Source: Saprospiraceae bacterium (lineage in GTDB: Bacteria; Bacteroidota; Bacteroidia; Chitinophagales; Saprospiraceae). From it: a DNA stretch of 64,000 nt. Positions 1,085 to 53,739 of this stretch are shown piece after piece. The stretch is taken from the NCBI GenBank assembly GCA_022448955.1, contig JAKVCU010000004.1, positions 1 through 64,000 of the forward strand, given 5' to 3'. The first letter of the stretch is position 1. The number at the start of each line of letters is the position of its first letter. The translations under genes and the position numbers were made by a program. Below the pieces are notes generated by a model. It saw only the letters and a list, made by a program, of their open reading frames with translations. It was not told the DNA's origin and made no database searches.

Positions 1085-1093
1085 GAACCATTT

Positions 1094-1699
1094 TTAGGCT
1101 GGTATATCTTGGAATCGCCAAAGATAAAAAGAAGCAATGGTACGATAAGGACGCCAAGGCTGAGATAATGCCAACATTTTTTTCTTTAGACTTCTACCCT
1201 TATCTTCAAAAGCATAAAGCTTTTGCACACTTTTTTGAATGCCTAAATCATCTACAGGAAACACATCACTGCGATTTAGACTAGTCATCAAAATCATTTG
1301 CACCGTCCATTTACCAACCCCTTTAATTTGAGTCAAAAACTGGATGATTTCATCATCTTCCATGGCTTGCCAATCATTGTTTTCTAATTGATGGGTCTGG
1401 AAAAACGCAGCAACATTTAAAATATAGGAAGCTTTTTGTCTGGAAAGGCCAACAGCTCTTAAATCAACAATATCAAAACCCAATAAAGGTTCTGGATAGG
1501 GATATCCTTCGGAGAATAATTCTAAAAAACGAGCAAAGATTGTTCCTGCTGCCTTGCCAGAAAGTTGCTGATAAACAATAGAACGGATGAGATAGAAATA
1601 GACATCATCATTAATGACAGGCCATTCGATCTGGATATCCTCAATTAAAGGTTTGAACTTTTTGTCTTTCGACAAATGAATTTTTGCTGCTTCAATCAT
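1094..1699 (-). CDS. DNA-3-methyladenine glycosylase II-like (AlkA family, HhH-GPD)
   Basis: A 201-residue base-excision repair glycosylase that removes alkylated purines. The helix-hairpin-helix GVGKWTVQM lies at 127-135, followed by FPVDDLG with the catalytic aspartate (D150 or D151), and the family-typical PWRPYRTIASFYLW near the C-terminus. It is shorter than E. coli AlkA (282 residues) because it lacks the N-terminal TBP-like domain, as in many short AlkA/MagIII-type proteins. It is upstream of, and nearly contiguous with, the aspartoacylase-family gene. The repair role is family knowledge; lesion range is unknown. Confidence 0.88.
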   Translation of the reverse strand: MIEAAKIHLSKDKKFKPLIEDIQIEWPVINDDVYFYLIRSIVYQQLSGKAAGTIFARFLELFSEGYPYPEPLLGFDIVDLRAVGLSRQKASYILNVAAFFQTHQLENNDWQAMEDDEIIQFLTQIKGVGKWTVQMILMTSLNRSDVFPVDDLGIQKSVQKLYAFEDKGRSLKKKMLALSQPWRPYRTIASFYLWRFQDIPA

Positions 1700-2087
1700 A
1701 AGTTTGGCATTGTGATGGGCGGAAAGCGTTGTGATATCCTATTTTTTGCCAAAATGGAGAAAGCAAACAATCTAATAGTAGTTTCAGTATACTCTTTCAG
1801 GAGCATAAAATAGTGATTCGCACACTTAGCCTATTACCTTACTAACAGTTAATATAATAGGCTTTCCGCTAAATCCAAACTTCTTTTTGAATTCAGTTCA
1901 ATATGATACCAAGAGACCTATTCATTATAGACCGAAACGTCCTAGGTAATACACTTCCATTAACTTGTTGGTCAAAACAAATTTTTAGGTGTAGATATAA
2001 GTTTATAGAGTATGTGGTACAACGTTCAGAGCTAAATAATTGATTCCTGAGATTAGGAATTGATTTGGTGCAGATTCTCTGATAGGC
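1700..2087. other. Intergenic, nothing recognised
   Basis: 388 bp between the AlkA-like gene start and the end of the acetyltransferase gene, both on the minus strand. The only structure noticed is a small inverted repeat (ATTCCT/AGGAAT, 2042-2059) just beyond the acetyltransferase stop, which could act as a weak terminator but has no T-run. No ORF with a recognisable product was seen. Confidence 0.5.
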
Positions 2088-2543
2088 TTAAGCTACCGCA
2101 GTAGCATTTTTACACAATCTTAATTCAAGGTATTGATTTTGAAAACCAATTTTCTTGAACAGCTCCATTTTAGGGTTATCCGGTTTTACATGTAGTGCTA
2201 CATCACCGTCAGCCATGCTGACTGCTTTACGAAGTAGAGATAACATCTCTTCTTCTTGTTTTAACTCACGATGTTGAGTAACAAAAGGAAAGATGTTGTT
2301 GGGCTCATAACCTTCCATGCCGGTTCTATTAGCGACAATAGCCGCTACAATTTCTTTGCCTTGTCGAGCTACTAAAATGAAACCTCCAAAAGATGGTTTA
2401 CTTTTGATGGCATATTCAATGGCCTCTTCGATACCTCTTTTGGATCCATTTTCAGAGTGCTCTAGCAAGAAACGAACCAATGCATTTTTTTCAGAGGAAT
2501 TGATCCCAGCGAATGCGTTGTAGATGGTCGTTTGCCAATTCAT
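2088..2543 (-). CDS. GNAT-family N-acetyltransferase (divergent)
   Basis: A 151-residue protein with the GNAT layout: an N-terminal helical part, a central strand pair (GGFILVARQGKEIVAAIVAN, about 53-72), and a C-terminal NPKMELFKKIGFQ that matches the family's final helix-strand motif. The acetyl-CoA pyrophosphate loop (Q/RxxGxG/A) is not clear; the region after FPFVTQHRELKQEEEML occupies its place but lacks the glycines, so activity is uncertain. Such proteins act on small molecules or protein N-termini; no substrate can be inferred. It is a monocistronic minus-strand gene flanked by noncoding DNA. Confidence 0.65.
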   Translation of the reverse strand: MNWQTTIYNAFAGINSSEKNALVRFLLEHSENGSKRGIEEAIEYAIKSKPSFGGFILVARQGKEIVAAIVANRTGMEGYEPNNIFPFVTQHRELKQEEEMLSLLRKAVSMADGDVALHVKPDNPKMELFKKIGFQNQYLELRLCKNATAVA

Positions 2544-2624
2544 TGCATGTTTTGGTTTAAGAATGCAGTGGTTTCCCTTAAATTATATTCATTGAAGTTA
2601 TCTTAAAAGTAAATTTCCAATCGA

Positions 2625-2723
2625 GAACAACACCTGAAAAGCCAAAACAAAGTGCTTTTTGAGTTTCGTCTATACAGACAGGGCTAAAAAAAGCTCAAGG
2701 ATATGGAATTTAACGTGTTGTTC
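2625..2723. repeat. ~99 bp imperfect palindrome with 9-bp terminal inverted repeats
   Basis: The ends are GAACAACAC (2625-2633) and its exact complement GTGTTGTTC (2715-2723). Inner segments also pair: GTGCTTTTTGAG against CTAAAAAAAGCTCAAG, around a near-palindromic centre GTCTATACAGAC. No coding potential. It could be a decayed MITE-like element or a structured RNA; no second copy was noticed in this window. Confidence 0.4.
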
Positions 2724-3104
2724 ATGGATGGGAAGAAGTGTTCTTAAAAAACTTCTTTATAAAATTAAAGGAAATCTTAACAATTGCGAATTTTTTTGTT
2801 ATAAAAAATTGTAAAATTTATTGATTATCAAACAAAAATGTAAATCTCAAACTAAAAAACTACTTTACAGCGCTTAGTTTATAGGTTCTATGATACTGTT
2901 GGATAAGCAATATCTCTTTTTTGAACTTTTTTAATCCGGACTAAGCTATACTAAGCTCATCGCGTCATCGTCTATGCGGAAGCTATTGTTTTAGCTAAAG
3001 GCAAAAGGATATTTGCTTCCTAATACTCTTTTTATATTAGTTTGGAAATATGATCTATAAAGACCATAAAAGGCACTTATGGACATAATCGTAGTGATCG
3101 TAAA

Positions 3105-3304
3105 TAAGCGGCTAGTCAAAATTGCTTGTATAATAAATTCCAGCCTGCCGGCAGGCACAGCGTCAGCTCAAAAATCGTAAATAACTGACAATATGAAAGT
3201 TACACACGATTTTAGAAGGGACGTTAAAGCCTGTCTGCCTATGGCTGAAATTTGTTATACCAATTTCAGCCATAGGCAGACAGGTTCTAGCCTAACTACT
3301 TAAG
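3105..3304 (+). repeat. Dispersed palindromic repeat, copy 1 (long form)
   Basis: Starts TAAGCGGCTAGTCAAAATTG and ends TTCTAGCCTAACTACTTAA. The ends are imperfect inverted complements. Internally it has AAAATCGT/ACGATTTT around a conserved AACTGAC...GAAAGTTAC core, then a perfect 23-bp stem with 9-nt loop (3230-3252 with 3262-3284) built on CCTGTCTGCCTATGGCTGA. Its left arm is partly replaced by a GCCTGCCGGCAGGC palindrome. The same core recurs near 3.3, 23.4, 30.5 and 47.5 kb. Confidence 0.8.
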
Positions 3305-3450
3305 TGCTTAGACAAAATTGCTTATAGAACAAAATGGTCAGGCAAAAAATAGATGGTGGCTGATGATAGGAAAGTTATGCACGATTTTGGATGGACACCA
3401 AGCTGTCAGCCTTTGGCTGAAAGTTTATTGTAGCAATTTACTACTTATTG
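3305..3450 (+). repeat. Dispersed palindromic repeat, degenerate tandem copy
   Basis: Follows copy 1 directly. It retains GACAAAATTGCTTATA, the core GATAGGAAAGTTATGCACG and the end TTTATTGTAGCAATTTACTACTTAT, but the left stem arm and the nested hairpin (reduced to GTCAGCCTTTGGCTGA) have decayed. This gives a head-to-tail pair of units. Confidence 0.6.
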
Positions 3451-3625
3451 CCGAGCTTTAACTTTAGATAGTCCTTAGTTGATCAACCTAAATCCTTGCT
3501 TAACCTTTTATCAACTTGCTTTGTAGGGATATGTGGGAAATAGCCGTATAGCTATCGGGTAATAGATAATTGATTAAAAAATCTCAGACAGACGTTTAGT
3601 AATCAAATCAATATCTGGCTCGTTA

Positions 3626-3667
3626 AAAAATAAAGCCCTATACCGATAGCATTCGGCACAGGGCTTT
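3626..3667 (-). terminator. Rho-independent terminator of the 104-aa gene
   Basis: Read on the minus strand, AAAGCCCTGTGCCGA pairs with TCGGTATAGGGCTTT across a short loop and is followed by ATTTTTT. It starts 24 bp beyond the stop of the gene at 3691-4005. Confidence 0.8.
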
Positions 3668-3690
3668 GATGAAGCAAAGTATTATTACAT

Positions 3691-4005
3691 CTAGTTCAAA
3701 GAAAACTGAGTAATTGCTTCTGCTCCATTGTGAAACATCAGTTCAGAGATATGCGGTGTCATATAATCACAAAGTGGCATCTTTGCAATCATCTCCATGA
3801 TTTCGAATTCAGAAGTGGCTGCCATTACTGCCCATAAGGTAGAACGATCTATCGATAGCGAATAAGATTTGATATCTCCATCTGCTAACATTTTATTAAT
3901 CATCATTCTTTGCTGAGGAACAAGTTCCAAGAAATCTTCAGTTAAAACTTCAGGAAGTTCAAACTCTATCATAAATGCTCTTTTCATTTTCTCAATTTTG
4001 TTCAA
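3691..4005 (-). CDS. Small conserved protein, muconolactone isomerase/dimeric alpha-beta barrel-like
   Basis: A 104-residue protein resembling muconolactone isomerase-like and YCII-like dimeric alpha-beta barrel proteins: a first strand (RAFMIEFELP), a helix (EDFLELVPQQRMMINKMLADG), two strands (IKSYSLSIDRSTLWAVMAATS) and a helix plus strand (EFEIMEMIAKMPLCDYMTP). Homologues in Bacteroidota are annotated as hypothetical or muconolactone isomerase-like. M7 (MKRAFMIEFE) is probably the true start since homologous folds begin there. A clear terminator follows. Function unknown; the fold assignment is an inference from the strand/helix pattern. Confidence 0.6.
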   Translation of the reverse strand: MNKIEKMKRAFMIEFELPEVLTEDFLELVPQQRMMINKMLADGDIKSYSLSIDRSTLWAVMAATSEFEIMEMIAKMPLCDYMTPHISELMFHNGAEAITQFSLN

Positions 4006-4726
4006 GGGAAAGTCTTAGATCCCTCCTCTTTTACGAAATTTTAGATTCGTTTATTTTGATACATACCAAATATTATTCAATAAACTAGTATAATATTCAG
4101 ACTACAGAAAATGCTAGACGAGACCCTTTACGCTAAATAAATTTTTGTGTGGTTCATTACAAAATGACTTTTCTTATATCTGCCACATAGACGTAAAGCC
4201 ATCTGCACTTTCTTATAATGCTCAGTACCTTTTGCTAGTTCAATTTCTAAGATACTTTAACCAATAATGGACTTTTGTTAACACTTCGATATTTATTTTG
4301 AGTACAAAGGTCATTTCCTCTGATGTGGATTTATCCATCCAATGGCTTTAGTTGTGATCAATTACTGCTAGCAAAACTTTAAAACAATTTTCTGAATAGA
4401 AGGGCTGATTTGGTTTCTGGTTAAGAGTGTGTTTAAATTTCATCCGTACCATATTTTTCACCATCCGTCTCATTTTTTGTTTTAGGTACATTTTATCAGA
4501 TACAATATAACATCTTCAATCAATATTTCCTAAGTTGGGTTTTAAGCTTTTTCATTTGGCGAAAGCCTAACAATAAAAATAGGTTAAACAAAAAAGTGAA
4601 ACTCATACATGAAATATGCTTATATTTACGTTAAATACATCGTCATTGAGATGAGAGTGTATTAAAAAGTAGTGTGGCTGAAAAAATAGCATTCAACAGC
4701 CTAAAGAATTAAAAAACAGTGGAAGC
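4006..4726. other. Divergent intergenic region, nothing recognised
   Basis: 721 bp of AT-rich DNA between divergently transcribed genes, so promoters for both should lie here. No strong TTG-N19-TAnnTTTG site was picked out by eye, and no ORF of note was seen. A weak GGCTG/CAGCC hairpin sits about 40 bp before the SPOR gene. Confidence 0.5.
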
Positions 4727-6442
4727 ATGCAAAAGTTTGGATATACGGTATTATTCATTTTGGTAACCAGCATAAGTGCGTTTACACAAAATAATGCTTA
4801 CTATACCGTCTTGGTAGGTACCTTTTTAGATGCAAAAGCACAAGACTTTGAAAATTTACGCTCACTTGGGTTTCTTCATGCCACTAAGTTAGAGGGCAAT
4901 TTGACTCAAGTTTATATAGGTGGATTTGACAAGCAGAGAGATGCTGAAAAGATGGCATCCGCTGTTAGGTCAAAAGGATATTCTGGTGCATTTGTTCAAG
5001 AAAGATTACTTTCAGAGGGGAGGTCTACGGCTATTATCCAAATGGGGATTCGTAATATCAAAAAAAATATTGACTGGGAAGATTATTATAGAGCTGGTGA
5101 CTTATATGTTATTTTAAATGGTAATCAGATAAAAATTGTCACAGGGCTTTATAATGATATTAATGATGCTAAAAAAGATGTGAGTAGAGTGCGTAAGCTG
5201 GGATTTAAAGATGCCTTTGTGAAAAGGATGAACACAACACTTTTGCATCAGGTGAATAGCTTTGAAGCTGGTGGACTAAAACGTCCTTTATTTGATATTA
5301 CTATAGAAGATAATCCCCAAAAGAATCGCTCAACCCCATACGATGTCGTACCAAAGAATTACGACGATGTTCGGTCAAAATCTCCTGTAGCAAAAGACCC
5401 AAGTCTGCCAAGCCGCATTCCTAATTCCTTTGGCACAGATTCCGCCCTTCCTACGATTCGCTCTAAGGTGAAACGTCGTTCTGCATTGGAACTACAAAAA
5501 GTACTAAAAGTACAAGGAACTTATTCGAGCAGTTTGGATGGCTATTATGGCAAAGGTACAACAGCTGCATATGAAAAAACACTAATGCGTAATCGAGATT
5601 TACAGAAGTATTTGGTATTATCTCAATATATGAACAGTAGTGGTCAAACGAGTAGTGATGGGACTTTGCAAAATATCATCAGCAACTTGATTGACGATCC
5701 TTCTGCCCCTGCATCTTTAGAAAAGTATAATTTGCCTATTGCTAATGTTTATAAGGCTTATTTATTATTCACTACTATTGGGCCCAATGCAGAGGTTAAC
5801 GATTTGATGAATACTGCTATTCGTAAAGCATATCAAGGCAAAAAGATTAAGAATCAACCTCCCTTTAATTATAATGCTACTTATGCTTATGAAGATTTGG
5901 AGCAATTAATTTTGCATGTTCACTATGTACATAGCGCTCCAGATACTGATATTGCAGCTCCTTGCTGGTTGTTCCAAATGCATCCAAGAGAGACAACAAA
6001 TGCATACAAAGCATATAACAATTTTGATAGCGATCATTTTCAATTACAGGCTTGTGACGAATTCATGTACTGGCCAGAAGTGAAGCTAGTACAAACAATC
6101 GCTAGCGATCTCAATCCTGATCCAAAGATTAATCAAGGGGATATTGCACAAGCAGCTTCAGAAAGAGCAAGGTTATTTCTTTCGCCTTCTAAATTGAGCA
6201 CTTCTGAGCTAAAAAAGCTGACGAAGTGGAATGCTAAAATTTGGGATAATATCAATAGTTGGGCCGCGAGAGATGCTTTACACCAACGCTTAGTTACTGC
6301 TTTCAAAATAGCTTATTTCCAATCACAAGTACGGCTGGAAGATTACTATATGAATAAAGGTTTTAAGAGTAAAGAAGCTGAAGGTCTAGCACTAGCAACA
6401 CTGCAAACGATTGCTGGCCCACATTTAGCACGATTTGATTAA
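4727..6442 (+). CDS. Secreted SPOR-domain protein with peptidoglycan-binding-like segment
   Basis: A 571-residue exported protein: signal peptide (about 1-21, cleavage after AFTQ), then two SPOR-like alpha/beta repeats (about 24-95, starting YYTVLVGTF, and about 100-168). SPOR domains bind glycan strands lacking stem peptides. A proline/serine-rich linker (about 190-245) leads to a peptidoglycan-binding-like segment (SALELQKVLKVQGTYSSSLDGYYGKGT, split here as SALELQKVLKV and SLDGYYGKGT, about 248-275). The C-terminal ~250 residues are helical and unrecognised. It is likely periplasmic or outer-membrane associated, acting at the cell wall. It is convergent with aroQ, 80 bp away. Confidence 0.7.
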   Translation: MQKFGYTVLFILVTSISAFTQNNAYYTVLVGTFLDAKAQDFENLRSLGFLHATKLEGNLTQVYIGGFDKQRDAEKMASAVRSKGYSGAFVQERLLSEGRSTAIIQMGIRNIKKNIDWEDYYRAGDLYVILNGNQIKIVTGLYNDINDAKKDVSRVRKLGFKDAFVKRMNTTLLHQVNSFEAGGLKRPLFDITIEDNPQKNRSTPYDVVPKNYDDVRSKSPVAKDPSLPSRIPNSFGTDSALPTIRSKVKRRSALELQKVLKVQGTYSSSLDGYYGKGTTAAYEKTLMRNRDLQKYLVLSQYMNSSGQTSSDGTLQNIISNLIDDPSAPASLEKYNLPIANVYKAYLLFTTIGPNAEVNDLMNTAIRKAYQGKKIKNQPPFNYNATYAYEDLEQLILHVHYVHSAPDTDIAAPCWLFQMHPRETTNAYKAYNNFDSDHFQLQACDEFMYWPEVKLVQTIASDLNPDPKINQGDIAQAASERARLFLSPSKLSTSELKKLTKWNAKIWDNINSWAARDALHQRLVTAFKIAYFQSQVRLEDYYMNKGFKSKEAEGLALATLQTIAGPHLARFD

Positions 6443-6522
6443 GAAAGGCGCTGAAATTTTGGAGTTCGAACTCAAAGAAAGATGGAAATAATGGATACCA
6501 AAGCCGAGTGCCCGAAAAAGTG

Positions 6523-6954
6523 TTAAATCTCGCTAGCTTGATCAATAAAATAATCAATAGCTAATTCGTAGCCGCTCAGTCCTAAACCAATAATACTTCC
6601 TTGGCACTTGGGTGCCATATAAGAATGATGGCGGAAAGCCTCTCTTGCGTGGATATTTGAAATATGAACTTCGATCACTGGAGTCGTTATTGCCGCAATA
6701 GCGTCTGAAATGGCAATAGAGGTATGAGTGTAAGCACCAGCATTAATAATGATGCCCGTATAGTTGAAACCTACTTCATGAAGTTTATCAATTAGAGCAC
6801 CTTCTGAATTATTTTGGAAGTAATGCAAAGTGATAGTTGCATATTTTTCTTGGAGGTATGCGAAAAATTCTTCAAAAGTATTCTTACCATAAATTGCTGG
6901 TTCTCGTTTACCGAGCAAATTTAGATTGGGGCCATTGATAATGATAAGCTTCAT
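6523..6954 (-). CDS. aroQ: 3-dehydroquinate dehydratase, type II
   Basis: A 143-residue dodecameric type II dehydroquinase of the shikimate pathway (3-dehydroquinate to 3-dehydroshikimate). The N-terminus MKLIIINGPNLNLLGKREP is diagnostic. The catalytic tyrosine is Y22 in AIYG, with N71/AGAYTHTS substrate contacts and the catalytic histidine in VIEVHISN (about 99). The length matches the family. It is monocistronic and convergent with the SPOR-protein gene. Confidence 0.97.
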   Translation of the reverse strand: MKLIIINGPNLNLLGKREPAIYGKNTFEEFFAYLQEKYATITLHYFQNNSEGALIDKLHEVGFNYTGIIINAGAYTHTSIAISDAIAAITTPVIEVHISNIHAREAFRHHSYMAPKCQGSIIGLGLSGYELAIDYFIDQASEI

Positions 6955-7066
6955 TTGAATGAATTTGAGTTTTAAAAAGTACCTTCAATAGGCTGAGTCA
7001 TTTAGATATATATGGTAATAAAGCCTTAGAATAAAATGAACAGATATATTCAACCATATAAAACGA

Positions 7067-7131
7067 GCATGATCTTTATTAATCATCCGCCTTAGGCGGA
7101 CACGCAAGGGTATGATTAAAAAAGATTATGC
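7067..7131. repeat. 65-bp imperfect palindrome with GC-rich apex
   Basis: GCATGATCTTTATTAATCAT (7067-7086) pairs with ATGATTAAAAAAGATTATGC (7112-7131) with two mismatches; between them is the perfect hairpin TCCGCCTTAGGCGGA (7086-7100). A second GC hairpin GCCTG/CAGGC (7134-7150) adjoins it. It is in the aroQ-recQ gap and noncoding. It may be a REP-like element. Confidence 0.5.
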
Positions 7132-7241
7132 GAGCCTGTCGGCCGCAGGCGGGAGCAAAGCGGTTCCATTTGTGCAGAAAAATTTTAAACAGATGAAAAT
7201 TCACCTTTTCCCAATTGATAAAGTGGATACTTGCTGCTGAA

Positions 7242-32136: not shown

Positions 32137-33054
32137 ATGCGTTTCTTGATTATCCTCCTTTGCATATGGCTTAGTTCCATACTCGCATCTGCCCAATCGA
32201 AAGCCAAACTATCCATCCAGCCAAATGATCATATTGTTTTTATCGGCAATACATTCGCAGAGCGAATGCAGCACTTCGGGTATTTCGAAACGCTTTTTCA
32301 ACTCCAATACCCAGAGGCAAAATTACAATTCCGCAATATGGGATGGAGCGCAGATGAGCCTCAGCTCCAACCCCGGCCACTCCATTTTGGCCCACAAAAT
32401 GAACACCTCACCAATGCACAAGCAGGTGTTATTTTCCTTTGCTTTGGTATGAATGAATCTTACCAAGGAGCAGATGGTCTAACAAGTTATATCCAAAATC
32501 TGCAAACACGGATTCGTAACTTAAAAAGTCAGCGATTTAATGGAAAAACTGCTCCTCGCTTAGTCTTAGTTTCTCCAATCGCTCATGAAAAAATAGCAAA
32601 ACTCCGACTTGATCCAACAATGCACAACCAACAATTACAACTGTATACGGCGAGCATGAAACAACTAGCCTTACAAGAAAATATCACTTTCATCAATCTA
32701 TTTGACGAAAGTCAAAAGCTCTTCAGTGCTGATCAAAAGAACTATACTATTAACGGCATACATCTTACAGATGAAGGTTATCAGAAAGTGGCGATAATGA
32801 TGATGAATGAATTGCAATTAGCCAATCAGGAAGCAATAAATTGGGGAAATTTACAAGCACTCCGAGAACTTATTGTTGAAAAAAATCGCCAATTTTTCTT
32901 TCGATGGCGACCCGTAAATAGTGAGTATATTTTTGGGAGAAGAAAAGAACCTTTTGGGGTAGAAAACTTCCCTGGTGAAATGGAAATGATTGATCAAATC
33001 CTTGAAGATTTAGATCAACAAATTTGGTCAACAGTTTCGGCTCTAAAATCCTAA
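32137..33054 (+). CDS. SGNH/GDSL hydrolase-like secreted protein with altered catalytic residues
   Basis: A 305-residue exported protein (signal peptide to about residue 20, ILASAQ-S). The SGNH layout is visible: block I IVFIGNTFAERM, block III FGMNESYQG (N106) and block V INGIHLTDEGY (H209). The nucleophile serine position in GDS(L) is T39 and the block V aspartate is N206, so the usual Ser-His-Asp set is not intact. Related proteins next to PVC-type propeller dehydrogenases share the GNT-type block. It is the first gene of a three-gene operon, 3 bp before the next start. It may bind carbohydrate rather than hydrolyse esters. Confidence 0.75.
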   Translation: MRFLIILLCIWLSSILASAQSKAKLSIQPNDHIVFIGNTFAERMQHFGYFETLFQLQYPEAKLQFRNMGWSADEPQLQPRPLHFGPQNEHLTNAQAGVIFLCFGMNESYQGADGLTSYIQNLQTRIRNLKSQRFNGKTAPRLVLVSPIAHEKIAKLRLDPTMHNQQLQLYTASMKQLALQENITFINLFDESQKLFSADQKNYTINGIHLTDEGYQKVAIMMMNELQLANQEAINWGNLQALRELIVEKNRQFFFRWRPVNSEYIFGRRKEPFGVENFPGEMEMIDQILEDLDQQIWSTVSALKS

Positions 33055-33057
33055 AAG

Positions 33058-36000
33058 ATGAAAAAGAATAACTTCCTTATACTTACCCTTTTAATTGGGA
33101 CCTTGCTCCTTTTTGGGGGCACCTACATCTATATGCAATTCTTCCAAATCAATAATATTGGCTATAAAGCTAATTTGGCAGAACTGGAAATGCGCCGCCA
33201 GTTTCAATTGGAAGAAGGCTATTCCGCCAACCTTTTTGCCTCTGAAAAAGATTTTGACCTAGGTAATGTGATGTCCATGACCTTTGATAGCAAAGGGCGG
33301 CTTTGGGCTTTGACGATGCCAACTTACCCTCATTATTATCCAGGCGAAGAACCTCACGATAAGTTATTAATTTTGGAAGATACAGACGGCGACGGCAAAG
33401 CCGACAAGCAAACCATCTTTGCAGATAGCCTTTATTTGCCAACTGGTTTCGAACTAGGCGAAGATGGTGTTTTTGTGGCGCAGCAATCTGATCTACTTTT
33501 CTTGAAAGATACAAATGGTGATGATCGTGCAGATGTCAAAGAGATCATCCTTCATGGATTTGGTACAGAGGATAGCCATCACTCTAATAGTGCATTTGAA
33601 TGGGGACCTGATGGGGCATTATATTTCCATGTGGGTGTGTTTTTTCACTCCCAAATTGAAACACCTTATGGCCCAGTACGCGTAAATGATGGAGCAACTT
33701 TCCGTTATCATCCTAAGATGATGCATTTAGAGGTATATACTTCCTACCCTTATGCCAATCCTTGGGGGCAGGTATTTGATCAATGGGGAAATCATTTTAT
33801 TGCGGATGCGAGTGGCGGTGCGAATTATTTTGCCAATCCAATGTCTGGGCGAATGGCTTACGGCCAAAAGCACAAAGGAATGAAAGTGTTTACTAGTGTT
33901 GTTCGCCCTACTTGTGGGGTAGAGTTTCTAAAAAGCAGACATTTTCCAGAAGAGGTGCAGGGGCTATTCTTGGTCAATAATAATATTGGATTTCAAGGGA
34001 TCAAGCAACATCAAGTTTTTGAAAAAGAAGCAGGGTTCGAATCAGAAGACCTAGGCTCTTTTTTGCAATCAAGCAATCCTAACTTTAGACCAGTTGATCT
34101 TCAAATTGGACCGGACGGGGCATTATACGTCGTCGATTGGTACAATCCACTGATCGGACATATGCAACATTCCATGCGTGATAGTATGCGCGATCAATCG
34201 CATGGCCGTATCTGGCGTATTACTTATAATGATAAACGCTTACTGGAAGCACAGGATTTGTCCAAAGAGAGTATTAACAACTTACTCGCATTACTCGATA
34301 CTTATGAAGACAGAGTAAAGTATCGTGCAAGAAGAGCGCTATGGCAGCGTCCAAAGGATGAGGTTTTAGCGGCTGTCGCCAAATGGCGAGAGCAGCAAAA
34401 AGCAGAGCGTTTGCTGCTTGAGGCCCTTTGGTTACACCAAGCATTTGACCAACCAAATGTAGACTTATTGAAGGTTTTGCTAGAAGCAAAAGAAGAAAAA
34501 GTGCGAGCCGCAGCAGTAAAAATACTACGCTATTGGAAAGCAGACGTACCTGATGCGCTGACTTATTTAGCGAAAGCGATAGCCGATGATTCGCCTAGCG
34601 TTCGCATGGAAGCAGTAGTAGCGCTCACTTATTTCGAAAGTGCAGAAGCAGTCGAACTTTGCCTAAAAGCCAACCAGCTACCCAAAGATTATTACTTAGA
34701 TTATTCCATTACAGAGTCCCTTCGGTACCTACGTCCCTATTGGCAGGAAGCTTTGCAAACGAATCCAGCTTATGTGGATGAAATCAGTGGAGGGAAAGCT
34801 CAACTTTATACCATGCTCAATGAGCAAGAGCTTTTAGCACTACCTTCTAATGAAGCCCTTTTATTGACTTTAATCAAGCGATTTAACACCTCTTCAGAAA
34901 CTAGAAACACAGCGCTTCAGCAACTGGCAACTCTCAAACAAACCTCGGAAGCAGCTACGCTACTTTATGCCCTAGAACAATTGGAAGATGCTAATTTATT
35001 GGAAGAACATCCACTGGTAGAGAAAATAATGGCCATGCCGAAAGAAGATTTAAAGCAGTATGAAAATCAGCTTTTAGCTATTGCTCAATCTCATCTTAGT
35101 CCTACTATTCAGAAGATTGCAACTGCTTTATTAGCCAATATCAGAAATGAAGCTCCTGCTCAAATTGCTCAAAAGCAAGTTCTTCAAAGTATTAGATGGA
35201 TGGAAGATGGAACAAGGATAAAGTTATTCCCAATGCTAAGTGGAATTATCAAAGGCAATACGGATAGCTTAAAAGTCGATGCTATAGAAGCATTAGCTTT
35301 CTTACCTGGCTTACAGACAGAAAAGGCAGAAATCATTTTACCAATTATACAAGATACTTCCTTATTAGCTTCCACTACTTTCGCTCTACAAAGTATCTAC
35401 CTTGATCAATTAAATACTGATCAGCAAATTGGTTTAAATCAACAGCTCAGCAAGATTGCAAAACAGATACCATTGGAAGCGCGAGATCAAGCAGCATTTA
35501 CAGGGGTGGTTGAAATTCTAGACTTACTCCAACCGCTTCTCCCTAAAAAAGAGCAAGAGGAACAAATACAACTTCTGCAATCCCTTGAACTACAAGAAGT
35601 CAGTATTGCTACTATACTCTCTAGGATGGTCTATAATAAAGAAGAAATCATCGTCGAAGCAGGAAAACCAGTTAAAATCACTTTGAAAAATCCAGATGTG
35701 ATGCCTCACAATCTGGTGATTGGTACACCTGGTAGCCTAGAAGCACTCGGTAAAGCAGCCGATGATATGGTAAAAGAAACAGATGCAGAGCAAAGACAAT
35801 ATATTCCGGATAATGAAAGTGTGCTGTTTTATACGCCTTTGGTTCCACAGCATCAATCCTATGATTTGTATTTTACAGCTCCCGAGAAGGTAGGGAATTA
35901 TCCATTCCTCTGTACTTTCCCTGGGCATTGGTCTTTAATGAATGGGGTAATTAAGGTAGTGGAAGATATGGGGAATTCGAATAATAGCAATCAAAAGCGT

Positions 36001-36486
36001 AGCTTCCACCTTGCGGTCAATCGTCGCACGAAAGTGCAAACCACCTACACTCGCAAACATCCGCACACTGGCGCAAAAACGCTTACCAATAGTATTCACG
36101 GAAGTGAGCAGTACAATGATGGCGAATGGCTAGGATTTGAAGGAGAAGATATGGTTGTTGAAATTGACCTTGGTAGTACAATGGATATCGAAGAAGTACA
36201 AGTTGGTGCACTTCAGCGGATGGCAGATTGGATATTTATGCCAACCAGTGTAGAAGTTTCTATTGCTGAGAAAGACCGGCAAGAATTCAAAACAGTAGGC
36301 ATGTCAACCAATACGGTCGAAGCCAAGGAAGAAGGCGCTATTCTGAAAAATTTCCATGTAAAAATACCTGCTCAGAAGGTACGATATATAAAAATTCATG
36401 CACAGAATAGAAAAATGTGCCCTGATTGGCACCCTGGTGCAGGCAGTAAAGCATGGATATTTATTGATGAAATTGTTGTAAAGTAA
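33058..36486 (+). CDS. Membrane-anchored beta-propeller / HEAT / cupredoxin / discoidin-like fusion
   Basis: A 1142-residue protein: N-terminal membrane anchor (about 5-28); PVC-type glucose-dehydrogenase-like beta-propeller (about 45-400; FDSKGRLWALTMPTYPHYYPG split as FDSKGRLWAL, YPHYYPG; DTDGDGKADKQTIF; GPDGALYVVDWYNPLIGH); HEAT-like helical repeats (about 420-850); a plastocyanin/azurin-type domain (about 858-972) with copper ligands H884, C952, H957, M961 in azurin spacing; and a C-terminal F5/8-type discoidin-like carbohydrate-binding domain (about 985-1142). No CxxCH haem motif is present, although the related family usually carries a cytochrome c domain. Likely a periplasmic sugar-binding redox protein. 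Confidence 0.8.
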   Translation: MKKNNFLILTLLIGTLLLFGGTYIYMQFFQINNIGYKANLAELEMRRQFQLEEGYSANLFASEKDFDLGNVMSMTFDSKGRLWALTMPTYPHYYPGEEPHDKLLILEDTDGDGKADKQTIFADSLYLPTGFELGEDGVFVAQQSDLLFLKDTNGDDRADVKEIILHGFGTEDSHHSNSAFEWGPDGALYFHVGVFFHSQIETPYGPVRVNDGATFRYHPKMMHLEVYTSYPYANPWGQVFDQWGNHFIADASGGANYFANPMSGRMAYGQKHKGMKVFTSVVRPTCGVEFLKSRHFPEEVQGLFLVNNNIGFQGIKQHQVFEKEAGFESEDLGSFLQSSNPNFRPVDLQIGPDGALYVVDWYNPLIGHMQHSMRDSMRDQSHGRIWRITYNDKRLLEAQDLSKESINNLLALLDTYEDRVKYRARRALWQRPKDEVLAAVAKWREQQKAERLLLEALWLHQAFDQPNVDLLKVLLEAKEEKVRAAAVKILRYWKADVPDALTYLAKAIADDSPSVRMEAVVALTYFESAEAVELCLKANQLPKDYYLDYSITESLRYLRPYWQEALQTNPAYVDEISGGKAQLYTMLNEQELLALPSNEALLLTLIKRFNTSSETRNTALQQLATLKQTSEAATLLYALEQLEDANLLEEHPLVEKIMAMPKEDLKQYENQLLAIAQSHLSPTIQKIATALLANIRNEAPAQIAQKQVLQSIRWMEDGTRIKLFPMLSGIIKGNTDSLKVDAIEALAFLPGLQTEKAEIILPIIQDTSLLASTTFALQSIYLDQLNTDQQIGLNQQLSKIAKQIPLEARDQAAFTGVVEILDLLQPLLPKKEQEEQIQLLQSLELQEVSIATILSRMVYNKEEIIVEAGKPVKITLKNPDVMPHNLVIGTPGSLEALGKAADDMVKETDAEQRQYIPDNESVLFYTPLVPQHQSYDLYFTAPEKVGNYPFLCTFPGHWSLMNGVIKVVEDMGNSNNSNQKRSFHLAVNRRTKVQTTYTRKHPHTGAKTLTNSIHGSEQYNDGEWLGFEGEDMVVEIDLGSTMDIEEVQVGALQRMADWIFMPTSVEVSIAEKDRQEFKTVGMSTNTVEAKEEGAILKNFHVKIPAQKVRYIKIHAQNRKMCPDWHPGAGSKAWIFIDEIVVK

Positions 36487-36488
36487 AA

Positions 36489-37460
36489 ATGATGCGTAAC
36501 TATATATTTTTATCATTCTTATTCTTTTTTGGCTGTAGCCAAATACAAGAAACAGTAGAAGAGGCTCCAAAACATATCGTTTTTGTAACCGGCGATGAAG
36601 AGTATCGTTCGGAAGAATCGATGCCTATGTTGGCCTCCATTTTAGAGCGGGATGGCTATCGGGTAAGCGTTTGTTATGCATTGGACTCGATGGGGTATAT
36701 TGATCCTAATAATTTACATCATATTGCTGGTTTGGAGGTGCTCGATTCGGCTGATTTGATGGTGATGTTTACTCGTTTTAGAGCATTGCCAGAGGAAGAG
36801 GCACAATATATTTTAGATTATGCAGAATCAGGCCGTCCAATGGTTGGCTTTCGTACGGCCACCCATGCTTTTAGATACCCAGATAGTAGTCAATGGCAAT
36901 GGCTGAATGAAGAATGGCCGACTAAAGTATTTGGTCAAAAATGGATTACACATCATGGCCACTTTGCAGATGGCGATCATCATTTGACGGAAGTCAGCAT
37001 AGCAGGAATATCAAATGGGCATCCTATTCTAAGGGGGGTTGAAGCTTTTAAAGCCTATAGTTGGTTGTATCATGTGACTGGAGGGCAAGATAGTTTGTAT
37101 GGAGATAGTAAAGCCCTTTTAGATGGCAAAGCATTGCGTTCTAACCATGCTAATAATCATGCTTTAGATCGTTTTCCTTTAGATAATGTAGTAGCATGGA
37201 CTAAGTCCTATACCGGGAAAAGGGGGCAAAAAGCCAGAGTGTTTTTTACCACACTAGGGCATCCTTTTGACTTTAAGGAGGAGTCGATGAGGAAGCTTTC
37301 GCTAAATGGGATTCGCTGGGCGCTAGGGCACGAAGACCAGATACCAAGTGAGGGTAGTGATGCCCATTTTGTGGGTGACTACAAGCCTAATAATTCTGGA
37401 TTTGGTCAAAAATTCAAACCACAGTTAAAACCTAAATTTTTGGGAACATTAAAAAGATAA
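36489..37460 (+). CDS. ThuA-like domain lipoprotein
   Basis: A 323-residue lipoprotein (lipobox FFFGC, Cys16). The ThuA/trehalose-utilisation fold (class I glutamine amidotransferase-like) shows HIVFVTGDEEYRSEESMPML (HIVFVTGDEEYRSE), DSADLMVMFTRFR, YAESGRPMVGFRTATHAF and THHGHFADGDHHLTEV, the last rich in histidines that may bind metal. ThuA proteins often accompany sugar oxidoreductases and the PVC propeller proteins. It starts 3 bp after the propeller gene, so it is cotranscribed. Catalytic role undefined. Confidence 0.85.
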   Translation: MMRNYIFLSFLFFFGCSQIQETVEEAPKHIVFVTGDEEYRSEESMPMLASILERDGYRVSVCYALDSMGYIDPNNLHHIAGLEVLDSADLMVMFTRFRALPEEEAQYILDYAESGRPMVGFRTATHAFRYPDSSQWQWLNEEWPTKVFGQKWITHHGHFADGDHHLTEVSIAGISNGHPILRGVEAFKAYSWLYHVTGGQDSLYGDSKALLDGKALRSNHANNHALDRFPLDNVVAWTKSYTGKRGQKARVFFTTLGHPFDFKEESMRKLSLNGIRWALGHEDQIPSEGSDAHFVGDYKPNNSGFGQKFKPQLKPKFLGTLKR

Positions 37461-47754: not shown

Positions 47755-50700
47755 TTATCGCATTAATACTACATCTCCCTTTTTTTCGACTTTCACCTCC
47801 TGCCCGCAGCTTAAAACAGTAGCTTCCAAATGCCAGATGAAAACACCTGTATTTAAAAGCTTTCCTTTAAATTTACCATCCCAAGCCTGAATTGGATCAT
47901 TACTTAAGAACACTTGATTACCCCAACGGTCGAAGATGTGCAACTTATAGTCTATTATACCAACAGTAGTTGGTATGAAACCATGGAATTCATCATTAAA
48001 TCCATCATTATTAGGTGAAAACACATTAGGTATATACATGTCGTCACTGTTCGGATTATCCTCCATTCTAGCCTGGACACTAGTTTCAATACTTTGACAT
48101 CCATCAGAAACCGTCACAAAATAAGTGCCGGCTTGACTTATCATTCTGTTCAAATCTGTACTTCCATTATCCCATAGAACACTTAGCGTATTGATATCTC
48201 CTGCAAACACTTGTACTTCAAGTTCTGCTTCCAGATCTTCACAGCTAATAACAACGTCTTCTACTACATACTGAAGATTTGGCAAGGATAATAACTGGAC
48301 AACTTCTTCTTCCAGACAGCCATTTGTATCTTGTATCTGTAAGGTATAGGTGCCAGCCTGTAAATTATTAAAACTTGGTTCATTCTGGAAATTCACGCCA
48401 TCTATACTGTATGTATAGTCTGTGCTCAATGGCTGAATACTGATATTACCACTAGCAATATCTGGACATGATTCTAAAACTGTGAAATCATATTCGATCA
48501 ATGGCATTGCATTTACACTTACACTAACAATAGAATCACAACCTGCTCCATTCGTATAGAAAAAGTCTATCTGATCACCTGCTTGAAGAGTATTACCATT
48601 GTAAGCTATTGTCTCACCATGACAAACATCTAATTCTACAAATATCTGATCGCTCATGACCTCATCAACTTGAACCCTTATCGTAGAATCACATCCAACT
48701 GCATTTACAAAAGTGAAATCCATTTGATCACCTGCAGCTAATGTCATGCCTGAATACTCAATGGTTTCTCCTGGGCAAACGCTTAAACTTAGATCAGAAC
48801 TGCTTGTCTCTAATTCAAATACAGTGACTATGATTGTAGAATCACAGCCATTAATATTCGTGTAGTCAAAAGTCATATCACTACCTGCTGATATGACTTG
48901 TCCGTCAAACTCAATAGAAGTGCCTGCACAAGCATTAAAACTTAAACTATCTATAGAAGAGGGACAGTATATCTGAATTAGCCAATTGATTATTTCTTCA
49001 TCATCACAGCCTTCGATCAATGCATCTACTGTTGGATTGATGGCTATTAAGTTATCTGGTAAACTCATTTCATCCACTTCTATTGTATAATTATCTGAAG
49101 GAATATTAGGAAAAGAATAAAAACCACTGTCATTAGAATTAGTGGAATTTAGTACGGCTGTTCCATTCACCAAATTGATTGGAATATTATTCATCAGAGT
49201 ATCTGGTCCATCGATAATACCATTTTCATTGACATCAAAATAAACTAACCCTTGGATAGTTCCAAAGCCAGGTAATAGATCTAATGATATTACATCAGAA
49301 GTTAATGTACAAGACTGCGAATTGGTCATTTCTACAGTATAATTGCCACTTTCTATTGCAATTAGATTTGGAACAGTACCCTCTGGCGCTGGTATAGCTA
49401 CGCCATCTAAGTACCACTGATAACTCACTACTCCAGGTATACTTGGTAAACAAAGGGTATCTGGTGAACAACGGGAATGACAACCAGATGGGATTTTACT
49501 GATGTCTGGACCTGCTGTAATTTCTAGTTCATTGCTTTCCATTTTACAACCAAATTCATTGACTGCAGTTACCCTATAAGTACCTGCTTCTGCAGTAGTC
49601 ATGCTTGTACCTGTTTCGCCATTACTCCAATTATAAGTAACTCCTGCTTGTGGACTGGCCACTGTAAATGTCGTTGCGGTGCTTTCGCAAATAATTCCCG
49701 TAACAGAAGTCTCAATTATTACTGGATCTGGTAAAGGATGAATAGTAATGTTAAATGGACCAACAGTATTAGAACAACCAGTTGTCTGGTCGTTAAGGTC
49801 TAAGAAAATAATATGATCCCCTGCATCCAAAAGATTAGCTCTAGCTTCTGAAAATGCTGTTGCAACACCCTCATCACCATTTGACCATTCATAAGTGTAA
49901 TTCGTATTTTCGCTTACGCTCAAAAATATATCTTCTCCGAAACAAGTTTCATAATTATCATAATAAAAGGCAGTTGGTAGATTATAATCATTAAATTCGA
50001 CGGCTCTTATAGCAGCATCTGGTACTGGAATTATATCTAACAGTGCTCCTGAAGGAGTATAATTACATCCCTCCGCATCTGTGATAGTTACTTCATAAAT
50101 ACCTGCAGTATCTATAACAATACTATTTGTTGTTTCTCCTGTAGACCATGTCCAGCTGACACCTCCCGTTGGAGCTATCAGCGTTGTATAGTCTCCTTCA
50201 CATATTGGAGAGGGTTGAGAGAAAGTAATATTTCCATTTAAAGAATTGGGCTCTACGGTGATGACTCTACTATAGCTATTGGTACACCCATAAATATTTT
50301 GTGCCCTAAGCGTAACATTGTAATTACCCGTTGCATTAAATACATGATAAGTATCAAATAATGTTGAATGATTTGCATCTCCACTACTTGGATCGCCAAA
50401 ATCCCATTCCAGATTAGTTATAGATGTAGGTACATTTGCAATGAAGTTAAGTGCAGTAACTTCACAAAGAACAATTGGCTCTTCAAAAGAAACTACTGGA
50501 GGAGAGTAAACCTCTACTGTTTTTGCAATGGAAGAAGTACATCCACTTTGGTCAGTTACTGTTAATGCAACAACATAAGTACCATCGGTGTCAAATGTGT
50601 GAGTAGGATTGATGTCTGTCGATGTATTTGCTCCACCACTAGCTGGATCACCAAAGCTCCATGACCAAGAAACAATACTAGTATTGGGGAGGAAAGTGGA

Positions 50701-53700
50701 AAGATCTAAGAAACTAACTGGCGATCCTGCACAAGCTTTATCAAAATCAAAAGAAGCTGCTAATGGGACAGCTACAACCTGTGCATCATAGCAAATGAAA
50801 TAAGTTCCTAGGCTATCCGGGTTTTCAACATCTGCCGTAAGCACTACCTTGTAAAAACCGGCTTTAGAAAATTTATGACTAGTGTTAGTTGTACCACTGC
50901 TGGTATTGTCATTACTATTAGGATCATCAAAAGTCCACTCCAAAGAATTGATATCTGTATTACCACTAAGCAAAGCATTAAAGTTTACATAGTTGCAAAT
51001 ACCATTATCTGCAAATGTAAATTGTACAAGCGTACTGGGTTCACAGTCTGATACAATACTGCAAGTTTGACCATTACAAACACCTCCACTTCCTTCACAA
51101 TATTCAAAGAGTGTTAAGCTATTTGACTGAAATATACAGCCATTCGAATCGGTCATCTCTACCCAATAAATACCAAAGTCGATAGTGGTAAAGTTAGGAC
51201 TATTCGTACCCACCTGTATACCATTATGATACCATTGATAAGAATATCCAGCTTGCGTATTAACGGCATATAAAGTTCTTGGACCATCGCCGTCGTCAGG
51301 GCAAAATCCCTCATTATCAGGTGTAGAAATGGAAATTTCTGATATAGGATGATCATTGATGTAAAAAGTAGTATCATTCAAACAGCCAAATTCATTTTCT
51401 ACTAGCAATTGGTAATAACCAGATCCTAGATTAGGAGCAGCAACATTAGAAATGACTACTCCATACTCATCTTTCCAAGTATAATTTATAAATGGTATGC
51501 TAGTGCTTACCGCAGCTGTTTCATTTGGGCATAAACTAGTAGGGTGATTTACGACCACTTGTGGTCTTGGATATATTGTAATAGGATAGTTTATACTTTC
51601 TCCGCAAACATTAAGGTTTAAGTTTGCAGGGCCTTCCGAATGCCAGAGTACTTCAATAGTGCTACTCTTTGGATCAGAAGTAATCGTTCCAATACTATTT
51701 GGTATAATCGTCCAATTATATTCCACCCCCTCATAGTAAGATGCACTATAAGAACTAGTCTGCTCTTGACAAACTTCTTGATCACCAATAATAGTAGAAC
51801 CAACGATTTGATTTATGGAAATAGCTAGTGGTGCCGACTCACATGCAAGCCCATTGGTGCTGATTTGGCTAACCGCTAAATCATATGGACCAGCTGCTCC
51901 CCAAGTAACATTAATTGGATTACCCAATACTTCGGATACCATTCCTCCATTATTGATGTGCCATTTAAAGTTATTTTGAGGTGCTGTAGATATTGCTTCA
52001 TAGGTGTAAGAAGTATTTGGACAGATATTTGTTTCGCCAGTAATGGCAGTAGCTGGATCTGGGGCTGCTATTATGGCAATAGTTAGTTCGTAATGGTCAA
52101 CGCAAATCGTAGTCGCATTGCTAGGTGTCGCGATTAAGGTGTATACCCCTGGTCCGAAAGTCCAGTCAATAACAGCCGAACTGGAACTACTTCCAGAAAC
52201 CCATACACTACTGCCATCTGCGGCTAGTACTTCCCAATTAGAATTAACGCCTATATTGAAAAAGTCATTAATGGTATTAAATGTTTCTGTTGCGTTTTCA
52301 CAAACTTCAATAGGGCCTTCCACAAAAAAACCTGCTTGAACTTCTACATCCAACTGGGCGTTTCCACTACATGATAAGTAGCAATTTTCATAAGCTACAC
52401 TTACAGATTGAATTGTGCTAGGAATAAAACCACCAAACCATTGAACTGTAATTTCATTCGAACCTTGACCAGATATAATAGTACCATAAGTGGAAACCGC
52501 CCATGTGAATGAAGTCCCTTCATAAGGTGGAATAGAGTAGTTCGCTACTGAAGCTCGACAGACTTGTGCGGGCCCCTCAATAACTGCGTTATCAGAGAGA
52601 ATTGGAATTTGTATAATATTTGGCTCTAAGCAAATATTGGGATCGCCACAGTCATCTACAGTCAACTCAATAAATCCTTCTGGCCCGCCAGTCCATTCGA
52701 TAGTTATAAAATTATCATTGTTATTACCTCCATCAATGATAGTGCCGCTTCCATTTACGATCCAGTTAAAGGTTCCGCAAGATGCATCCGAGGTGTAGGT
52801 GACGATTTCTCCTTCACATATTGTACCTACACAATCCACAATTGGACTAACTGCATCTTGAACTTCAATGATTACAATGCTTGTATCCGTACAAAGGCAT
52901 TCATTATAAGCAATCAATGATACTTCATATGTTCCAGGAGATGCATAGGTGAATGCTACATTGGTCTCCTCCGCATTAGATCCGTCGCCTGATTTCCAAA
53001 GATAAGTAGAAGCTCCATCTGAAGTATTGCTAAAGAAGACGGTTTGTCCTTTACAAACGCGGATAATACCATTTTCTTCTTCTGGTATAGAAGTAAAGCT
53101 CGATGATGGATTCTCTAATATTTCCACACAGATAGATTCGAAGCTTTCGCAAAATCCATCATAAACGGATACATATACTTGTCCTTGGCCTGATGCACCC
53201 CAAGTGACGGTAATACTTTCATAGTTGTTTTCCCAACTTTCAGCCCCTATCACATCCCAAATGATTTGCCCATTGGGCAAATTCTCAGTCGTATAGGTTA
53301 TGGTGCTTCCAGTACAGACTTTTTCACAGCTACTAGAGCTATTATTCCCATCGGGACAGACCTCTTCAATGGTGGACTCTAAGGAAACCAAATTGCCGCC
53401 AAAAATAATTATATGAAATTCGATAAAGTAAATCTGGCCTGCAAAGCCAGTGCATAAAACCTCAAAGTTGTAAGTGCCTGGAGTAGAAATACCATATTGG
53501 TCCCAGCAGATATCTACAGGTATATTGGGTTCCAATGGAATAACTTGGCCGTTTGGCATATAAATTTCACAAAAAGCAGCAAGAGAATCGATCAACGTAT
53601 AGGTGCCACAATCGTAAGCGCACAGTTCTGATGGGCCTTCTATCTGCCAGTTATCTTGGGCAGACACAGAAAAGCTAAATAGTATTCCAAAAATAAGTGA

Positions 53701-53739
53701 GAGGATGAAATGTCTTTGGGTTTTCGTTCGCATGATCAT
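47755..53739 (-). CDS. Giant secreted PKD-repeat protein with gliding-associated CHU_C domain
   Basis: A 1994-residue cell-surface protein. Signal peptide to about residue 28 (FSVSAQ). Many Ig/PKD-like domains; clear PKDs centre near residues 246, 933, 1026 and 1113 (WTFDDPNS, WSFGDPASGG, WDFGDPSSGD). Then an SdrD/SpaA-like B domain (about 1493-1576; GLVYFDVNENGIIDGPD), three tandem ~52-residue repeats ending GCDSTI/GCDSIV (about 1580-1735), a SprB-like repeat (about 1753-1816), and the C-terminal CHU_C/T9SS type B domain (about 1903-1994; YIPNVFSPNNDGFNDEFHG in part, IFDRWGNQVF, GVFIWHLEA). Likely a surface adhesin exported by T9SS; partner unknown. Confidence 0.95.
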   Translation of the reverse strand: MIMRTKTQRHFILSLIFGILFSFSVSAQDNWQIEGPSELCAYDCGTYTLIDSLAAFCEIYMPNGQVIPLEPNIPVDICWDQYGISTPGTYNFEVLCTGFAGQIYFIEFHIIIFGGNLVSLESTIEEVCPDGNNSSSSCEKVCTGSTITYTTENLPNGQIIWDVIGAESWENNYESITVTWGASGQGQVYVSVYDGFCESFESICVEILENPSSSFTSIPEEENGIIRVCKGQTVFFSNTSDGASTYLWKSGDGSNAEETNVAFTYASPGTYEVSLIAYNECLCTDTSIVIIEVQDAVSPIVDCVGTICEGEIVTYTSDASCGTFNWIVNGSGTIIDGGNNNDNFITIEWTGGPEGFIELTVDDCGDPNICLEPNIIQIPILSDNAVIEGPAQVCRASVANYSIPPYEGTSFTWAVSTYGTIISGQGSNEITVQWFGGFIPSTIQSVSVAYENCYLSCSGNAQLDVEVQAGFFVEGPIEVCENATETFNTINDFFNIGVNSNWEVLAADGSSVWVSGSSSSSAVIDWTFGPGVYTLIATPSNATTICVDHYELTIAIIAAPDPATAITGETNICPNTSYTYEAISTAPQNNFKWHINNGGMVSEVLGNPINVTWGAAGPYDLAVSQISTNGLACESAPLAISINQIVGSTIIGDQEVCQEQTSSYSASYYEGVEYNWTIIPNSIGTITSDPKSSTIEVLWHSEGPANLNLNVCGESINYPITIYPRPQVVVNHPTSLCPNETAAVSTSIPFINYTWKDEYGVVISNVAAPNLGSGYYQLLVENEFGCLNDTTFYINDHPISEISISTPDNEGFCPDDGDGPRTLYAVNTQAGYSYQWYHNGIQVGTNSPNFTTIDFGIYWVEMTDSNGCIFQSNSLTLFEYCEGSGGVCNGQTCSIVSDCEPSTLVQFTFADNGICNYVNFNALLSGNTDINSLEWTFDDPNSNDNTSSGTTNTSHKFSKAGFYKVVLTADVENPDSLGTYFICYDAQVVAVPLAASFDFDKACAGSPVSFLDLSTFLPNTSIVSWSWSFGDPASGGANTSTDINPTHTFDTDGTYVVALTVTDQSGCTSSIAKTVEVYSPPVVSFEEPIVLCEVTALNFIANVPTSITNLEWDFGDPSSGDANHSTLFDTYHVFNATGNYNVTLRAQNIYGCTNSYSRVITVEPNSLNGNITFSQPSPICEGDYTTLIAPTGGVSWTWSTGETTNSIVIDTAGIYEVTITDAEGCNYTPSGALLDIIPVPDAAIRAVEFNDYNLPTAFYYDNYETCFGEDIFLSVSENTNYTYEWSNGDEGVATAFSEARANLLDAGDHIIFLDLNDQTTGCSNTVGPFNITIHPLPDPVIIETSVTGIICESTATTFTVASPQAGVTYNWSNGETGTSMTTAEAGTYRVTAVNEFGCKMESNELEITAGPDISKIPSGCHSRCSPDTLCLPSIPGVVSYQWYLDGVAIPAPEGTVPNLIAIESGNYTVEMTNSQSCTLTSDVISLDLLPGFGTIQGLVYFDVNENGIIDGPDTLMNNIPINLVNGTAVLNSTNSNDSGFYSFPNIPSDNYTIEVDEMSLPDNLIAINPTVDALIEGCDDEEIINWLIQIYCPSSIDSLSFNACAGTSIEFDGQVISAGSDMTFDYTNINGCDSTIIVTVFELETSSSDLSLSVCPGETIEYSGMTLAAGDQMDFTFVNAVGCDSTIRVQVDEVMSDQIFVELDVCHGETIAYNGNTLQAGDQIDFFYTNGAGCDSIVSVSVNAMPLIEYDFTVLESCPDIASGNISIQPLSTDYTYSIDGVNFQNEPSFNNLQAGTYTLQIQDTNGCLEEEVVQLLSLPNLQYVVEDVVISCEDLEAELEVQVFAGDINTLSVLWDNGSTDLNRMISQAGTYFVTVSDGCQSIETSVQARMEDNPNSDDMYIPNVFSPNNDGFNDEFHGFIPTTVGIIDYKLHIFDRWGNQVFLSNDPIQAWDGKFKGKLLNTGVFIWHLEATVLSCGQEVKVEKKGDVVLMR

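Follow-up and report, generated by a model that had tools for sequence, protein, structure and literature searches.

The window, i.e. the whole stretch of 64,000 nucleotides analysed (Saprospiraceae bacterium, assembly GCA_022448955.1, contig JAKVCU010000004.1), encodes a protein, P0001, that joins a predicted beta-propeller, a HEAT-repeat region, a cupredoxin with a full set of type 1 copper ligands and a discoidin-like domain in that order, between the genes of an SGNH hydrolase and a ThuA-domain protein (Table 1); in related proteins of five phyla the relay is copper, haem or both. We lean towards the view that P0001 is an exported modular redox enzyme, in which the propeller would oxidise a sugar or glycan-derived substrate and deliver electrons to the fused copper, with a relay that is exchangeable among relatives.

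Table 1. Features of the P0001 locus, with positions in the window.
Feature	Position	Strand	Extent	Basis
SGNH/GDSL hydrolase gene, signal-like N-terminus	32137..33054	+	305 aa	Lipase_GDSL_2 1.5e-11 (Pfam)
P0001, propeller-HEAT-cupredoxin-discoidin protein	33058..36486	+	1142 aa	ATG to TAA
N-terminal hydrophobic stretch of P0001, signal or membrane anchor	33079..33141	+	aa 8-28	by eye from the sequence
Beta-propeller of P0001, DUF7133 / TIGR02604	33193..34230	+	aa 46-391	Pfam, TIGR, AF2
HEAT-repeat helical region of P0001	34231..35592	+	aa 392-845	HEAT_2 1.2e-8; helical in long model
Cupredoxin of P0001, azurin/auracyanin type	35599..35958	+	aa 848-967	PF00127 2.6e-10; auracyanin A 1.1e-10
Copper ligand H884 (PHN motif)	35707..35709	+		69/69 aligned cupredoxin domains
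Copper ligands C952, H957, M961 (CTFPGHWSLM)	35911..35940	+		motif read and alignment
Discoidin-like C-terminal domain of P0001	35980..36480	+	aa 975-1141	6q63 2.4e-15
ThuA-domain gene, probable lipoprotein by eye	36489..37460	+		ThuA 1.1e-10 (Pfam)

The frame of P0001 is intact and has no internal stop. Its propeller is recognised by DUF7133 (2.3e-73, Pfam) and by TIGR02604 (236.2 bits against a curated cut-off of 122.2), and the HEAT region has high pLDDT in the long model. The order of propeller/HEAT, cupredoxin and discoidin-like domains, first proposed in a sequence-only reading, is thus borne out by Pfam, TIGR and PDB matches, and so is its claim that the haem site is missing, since a motif search of the whole protein returned no CxxCH. 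TIGR02604 bears the name 'PVC-type heme-binding CxxCH protein'; P0001 shares the propeller and the HEAT region with these proteins and scores above the family cut-off, but it ends in a cupredoxin and a discoidin-like domain and not in a CxxCH cytochrome. The family model that recognises P0001 thus takes its name from a haem site absent from this protein.

Our survey of P0001's own taxonomic family covered 150 genomes, 41 of them with a strong match, and all of the 29 best relatives retrieved have a C-terminal CxxCH (43-49% identity to P0001 over the N-terminal 500 aa). Copper-only orthologues were found in Bacteroidota, Rhodothermota, Acidobacteriota and Verrucomicrobiota. They were encountered in Rhodothermales MAGs (propeller 60-62%), in a Saprospiraceae MAG (66%), in the genera Dyadobacter, Larkinella, Fibrella, Siphonobacter and Emticicia, in one acidobacterial MAG and in Verrucomicrobiota. 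These closer orthologues come from a phylum search and a contig scan with patterns made from copper-form proteins, so that counts are not to be read as frequencies. A more distant set (L076-L094), among the many long proteins returned by a cupredoxin search, combines ThuA and a distant propeller (about 31%) with a cupredoxin 37-53% identical to that of P0001.

Copper and haem also occur together in one chain. Twelve homologues with propeller and HEAT repeats have a cupredoxin and then a CxxCH 67-83 residues after the copper Cys: four from Acidobacteriota (L154, L162, L167 and L208), seven from planctomycetes (L155, L157, L172, L180, L187, L188 and L195) and one further MAG (L165). All 12 are MAGs, L167 being a chromosome-level record, and Pfam detects both the cupredoxin and the cytochrome in L155 and L208. 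In the planctomycete form L155 (positions 696-4808), F5/8-type domains lie between HEAT and cupredoxin, as opposed to the C-terminal position in P0001. Relay domains are also encoded apart from the propeller: in a Blastopirellula MAG (L181) a relay-less SGNH-propeller gene is followed by a separate 642-aa cupredoxin-cytochrome c gene (5235-7163), and a HEAT-cytochrome gene adjoins some relay-less planctomycete members. Altogether, azurin-type domains of this system were seen in eight planctomycete records, seven propeller-fused and one in the separate copper-haem protein.

Besides P0001, the source genome encodes a propeller paralogue that ends in haem (L001, CATCH), another propeller-azurin protein (L009) and a subunit of a haem-copper oxidase. 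An inability to make c-type haem proteins is therefore an unlikely origin of the copper form, given the CxxCH propeller proteins of this genome. Moreover, genomes of Dyadobacter, Larkinella, Fibrella and Sphingobacterium carry both haem-only and copper-only paralogues, and we reject the notion that the two forms are mutually exclusive alleles; in the paralogue comparison the source genome, L137, Siphonobacter and Emticicia gave the copper paralogue only. Plasmid records yielded one distant match. The sequence-only reading took copper to stand in place of haem, and named homologues with both a cupredoxin and a cytochrome as evidence that would refute this. The contrast with haem holds for the 29 best family relatives, but copper spans several phyla and the survey of architectures found cupredoxin plus cytochrome in the 12 homologues above. 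A simple haem-to-copper swap in the lineage of P0001 is thus rejected as the full story, and copper is better described as an alternative or additional relay than simply as a replacement of haem.

The propeller tree (106 rows, quick method; it fixes neither root nor direction) pairs P0001 with L137 (support 99) and then with a copper-only Bacteroidota clade of 14 rows (92). The enclosing group of 47 rows (85, drawn open within) holds copper, copper-plus-haem, relay-less and two haem forms, and is adjoined by a haem-only clade of 22 rows (99). At least 8 changes in the presence of copper and at least 11 in that of haem are needed on this tree. The cupredoxin tree again places P0001 with L137 (90/82), and the cupredoxin was therefore probably inherited together with the propeller. 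We also considered a recent capture from the ThuA-fused copper clade, as identities of 50-53% suggested; the tree prefers L137 of P0001's own clade instead, and a test did not reject the alternative placement beside the ThuA clade (p 0.27). The cytochromes of the double forms find their best haem-only matches in outgroup clades (28-38%) and not in the sister haem-only clade, which suggests that exchange affected the haem domains as well.

A history that is compatible with the redox reading, and for which we see almost an even chance, has the copper-only proteins descend from an ancestor with both copper and haem that lost its terminal cytochrome, after which the discoidin-like domain took the vacant end of P0001. 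In the propeller tree the copper-only forms are intermingled with the double forms, the double-form cytochromes resemble those of the outgroup, and about 190 residues follow the copper Cys in P0001, comparable to 202-228 in the double forms and set against about 20 in the other copper-only proteins. However, the tree leaves the direction free, double forms come from MAG records only (L167 as a whole chromosome), and a gain of haem by copper-only proteins would also be possible.

The three genes of the row are separated by gaps of 3 bp upstream and 2 bp downstream of P0001, and are therefore probably co-transcribed; all three products are probably exported, as judged by eye from their signal-like or lipoprotein-like N-termini. 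The sequence-only reading had overlooked the two neighbours of P0001. The SGNH and P0001 genes share a frame, with TAA AAG as the sole spacer. In most relatives the SGNH domain is fused to the N-terminus of the propeller, and it is a separate gene here. It is unlikely that the two are one gene split by a stop, because P0001 begins with a hydrophobic stretch of its own and L137 and the Rhodothermales MAGs likewise encode SGNH and propeller separately. Among the proteins examined, 36/36 copper-only and 11/11 relay-less forms have SGNH fused or adjacent, as do 9/12 double and 13/14 haem forms. A minority of the SGNH-linked forms also have ThuA fused, adjacent or nearby, and it is fused in 20/20 of the distant copper clade (18 by the context survey, L092 and L094 by Pfam). 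Six proteins (L183, L190, L195, L196, L205 and L215) unite ThuA, SGNH and propeller in a single chain, with ThuA at either end and a relay in all except the truncated L215.

A PDB search by sequence gave nothing useful for the propeller and no solved relative. The AlphaFold2 model of this domain is of high confidence (pLDDT 93.1, pTM 0.93), and PQQ sugar dehydrogenases fill the top 16 places in VIA-align (Z 25-29; other propellers about 24 and below) and most of the top 17 in Foldseek (best 2ism, E 1.2e-9). For instance, 3a9g aligns with Z 29.1 (rmsd 2.9, 287 aligned), AA12 6h7t with Z 28.8 and sGDH with Z about 27.5; lactonase and DFPase propellers come next at about 23-24. With the long model, the fold search returned the propeller alone. 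P0001 resembles the PQQ sugar dehydrogenases (CAZy AA12, sGDH, Asd) in predicted fold, over 274-297 aligned residues, but identity is 13-19% and the PQQ ligands are only partly recognisable. The model therefore supports a propeller that is dehydrogenase-like in fold, as proposed beforehand, a shared fold being no proof of function.

Six residues, D172, H174, N234, H368, R378 and R384, are invariant over 103 rows with all relay types, which suggests one shared active site across the haem, copper and ThuA-copper clades. N234, in NPWG, is what we take by eye to be the counterpart of the Asn in RNPQG of sGDH, and H175 presumably corresponds by its spacing to the catalytic His of sGDH. The Arg of sGDH in front of this Asn has no conserved equivalent, A, N or P being the usual residues at position 233, and H175, unlike the invariant H174, gives way to Ala or Gln in some clades. 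A search run without a positive control found no pqqC in the source genome or in 21 genomes of relatives.

These departures from sGDH, i.e. the missing Arg and the variable H175, speak against a sugar-oxidising propeller, as do the negative pqqC search in the 22 genomes and a report on the haem form Lac161_ORF7 (TIGR02604, HEAT and cytochrome c), the one paper in open-access PMC text found to name TIGR02604, in which the expressed protein was described as a beta-galactosidase hydrolysing lactose with a Km of 1.8 mM (PMC5342196). The main competing explanation is accordingly a hydrolase, either glycosidase or lactonase, with the copper or haem domain serving another step or regulation. We regard it as rather unlikely. 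The lactonase and DFPase folds and the SGNH hydrolase partner would fit it, but PQQ dehydrogenases rank first, most relatives end in a one-electron carrier (haem, copper or both), which is hard to explain in a hydrolase, and some relay-less planctomycete members lie beside a HEAT-cytochrome gene. The oxidising enzyme is supported by the change of relay on a conserved propeller, nearly all relay forms of which keep the SGNH partner. One protein of the source genome (L004, contig C38, 7-3375) joins cytochrome c, PA14, propeller and a 3-keto-disaccharide hydrolase, and for hydrolases of the latter kind a partnership with a periplasmic lactose 3-dehydrogenase has been proposed (PMC9007349). Together, this fusion and the proposed partnership make sugar oxidation a plausible activity.

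The copper site agrees exactly with what the sequence-only reading had stated: H884, C952, H957 and M961 form a type 1 ligand set with the spacing C952-TFPG-H957-WSL-M961, i.e. C-x4-H-x3-M. Copper-bind reaches 41 bits (gathering cut-off 21.2), auracyanin A is matched in the PDB, and the Pfam, TIGR02604 and PDB scores indicate that these matches are not due to chance. H884 and N885, neither of which was used for selection, are invariant in all 69 aligned cupredoxin domains, whereas C, H and M belonged to the pattern by which these domains were selected. Every cupredoxin match in BLAST has C-x4-H-x3-M, and the region (model residues about 806-928) is of high confidence in the long model. Pseudomonas azurin has a conserved disulphide, Cys3-Cys26; it is absent from the cupredoxin domain of P0001, where C952 is the single Cys. 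The azurin equivalog TIGR02695 stays below its cut-off (37.3 against 105.1). P0001 is thus like azurin and auracyanin in ligand set and spacing, but its cupredoxin is a domain within a large enzyme. The site is complete and conserved, and copper binding is predicted. That it would serve as a copper store, chaperone or sensor instead of an electron relay seems very improbable: the redox role of every family member is itself a prediction, which leaves some room for such a function, but the ligand set is full and includes the axial Met, and the cupredoxin takes the position of the cytochrome c or stands in tandem with it.

The C-terminus of P0001 matches that of the beta-hexosaminidase 6q63 in the PDB, and Pfam F5_F8_type_C is below cut-off (2e-4). 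Within the source genome it is 27-38% identical to the C-termini of sulfatases, GH20 hexosaminidases and a PSCyt1 protein, and this sharing hints at a glycan substrate or surface. None of the other copper-form relatives seen carries such a domain at the C-terminus. The long model is of low confidence here, which can be attributed to the aligned rows, none of which has the domain. The PSCyt1 protein (L007, contig C46, 1495-3423) combines a planctomycete cytochrome c with LRR, chitobiase-C and a discoidin-like C-terminus as in P0001, although the genome is one of Bacteroidota.

The chance that P0001 is an assembly or frame artefact joining unrelated genes is negligible, for although the source is a draft genome of 230 contigs, the frame is open over 1142 codons and the same propeller-HEAT-cupredoxin order occurs in type strains and isolates, e.g. 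Siphonobacter aquaeclarae DSM 21668 and many Dyadobacter. A promoter and terminator scan gave results at chance level. Elsewhere in the window, a minus-strand frame of 1994 aa (47755-53739) appears by eye to encode a large surface protein that is rich in repeats and ends like gliding-motility proteins.

According to the favoured redox reading, the propeller, with the fold of PQQ sugar dehydrogenases and a putative cofactor of its own, would oxidise the sugar or glycan-derived substrate and the electrons would pass to the type 1 copper of the fused cupredoxin, from there to a soluble or membrane acceptor and finally to a terminal oxidase. In relatives this relay would be cytochrome c alone, copper alone or both in one chain, with copper presumably preceding haem in the double form. 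The SGNH hydrolase and the ThuA protein may act on the same substrate or product, and the discoidin-like domain may dock P0001 on a glycan or surface.

Enzymes that carry their own cytochrome are well known. In the open-access PMC literature we found no sugar-dehydrogenase-like enzyme with a built-in blue copper, nor one that unites copper and haem in a single chain. The Coprinopsis quinohaemoprotein pyranose dehydrogenase (AA12 and cytochrome b) likewise fuses a sugar-dehydrogenase propeller to an electron carrier, but there it is an N-terminal haem b domain and in P0001 a C-terminal type 1 copper after HEAT (PMC4332668). Tethered copper nitrite reductases also have a fused cupredoxin or cytochrome c as built-in partner, although their catalytic part is unrelated to that of P0001 (PMC6400189, PMC13324648, PMC6038957). 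An azurin survey lists azurin genes in Bacteroidetes, Verrucomicrobia and Acidobacteria, treats its single planctomycete match as probable contamination or wrong annotation, in contrast to the eight planctomycete records above, and in the passages found describes no propeller-azurin fusion (PMC8779525).

P0001 represents in principle a domain shuffle, yet a recurrent one, and copper-only, haem-only and copper-plus-haem forms on one scaffold were not found described in open-access PMC text. We tentatively suggest, with less confidence than in the reading of P0001 itself, a large family of exported sugar-oxidising propellers with a built-in type 1 copper, alone or followed by cytochrome c in one polypeptide, in which the relay was repeatedly exchanged and whose copper forms go unnoticed under a 'heme-binding CxxCH' name. 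If the redox reading is true, the copper, haem and double variants that nature has placed on the same scaffold would offer a ready comparison of relay tuning, and may serve electrode-coupled sugar sensors.
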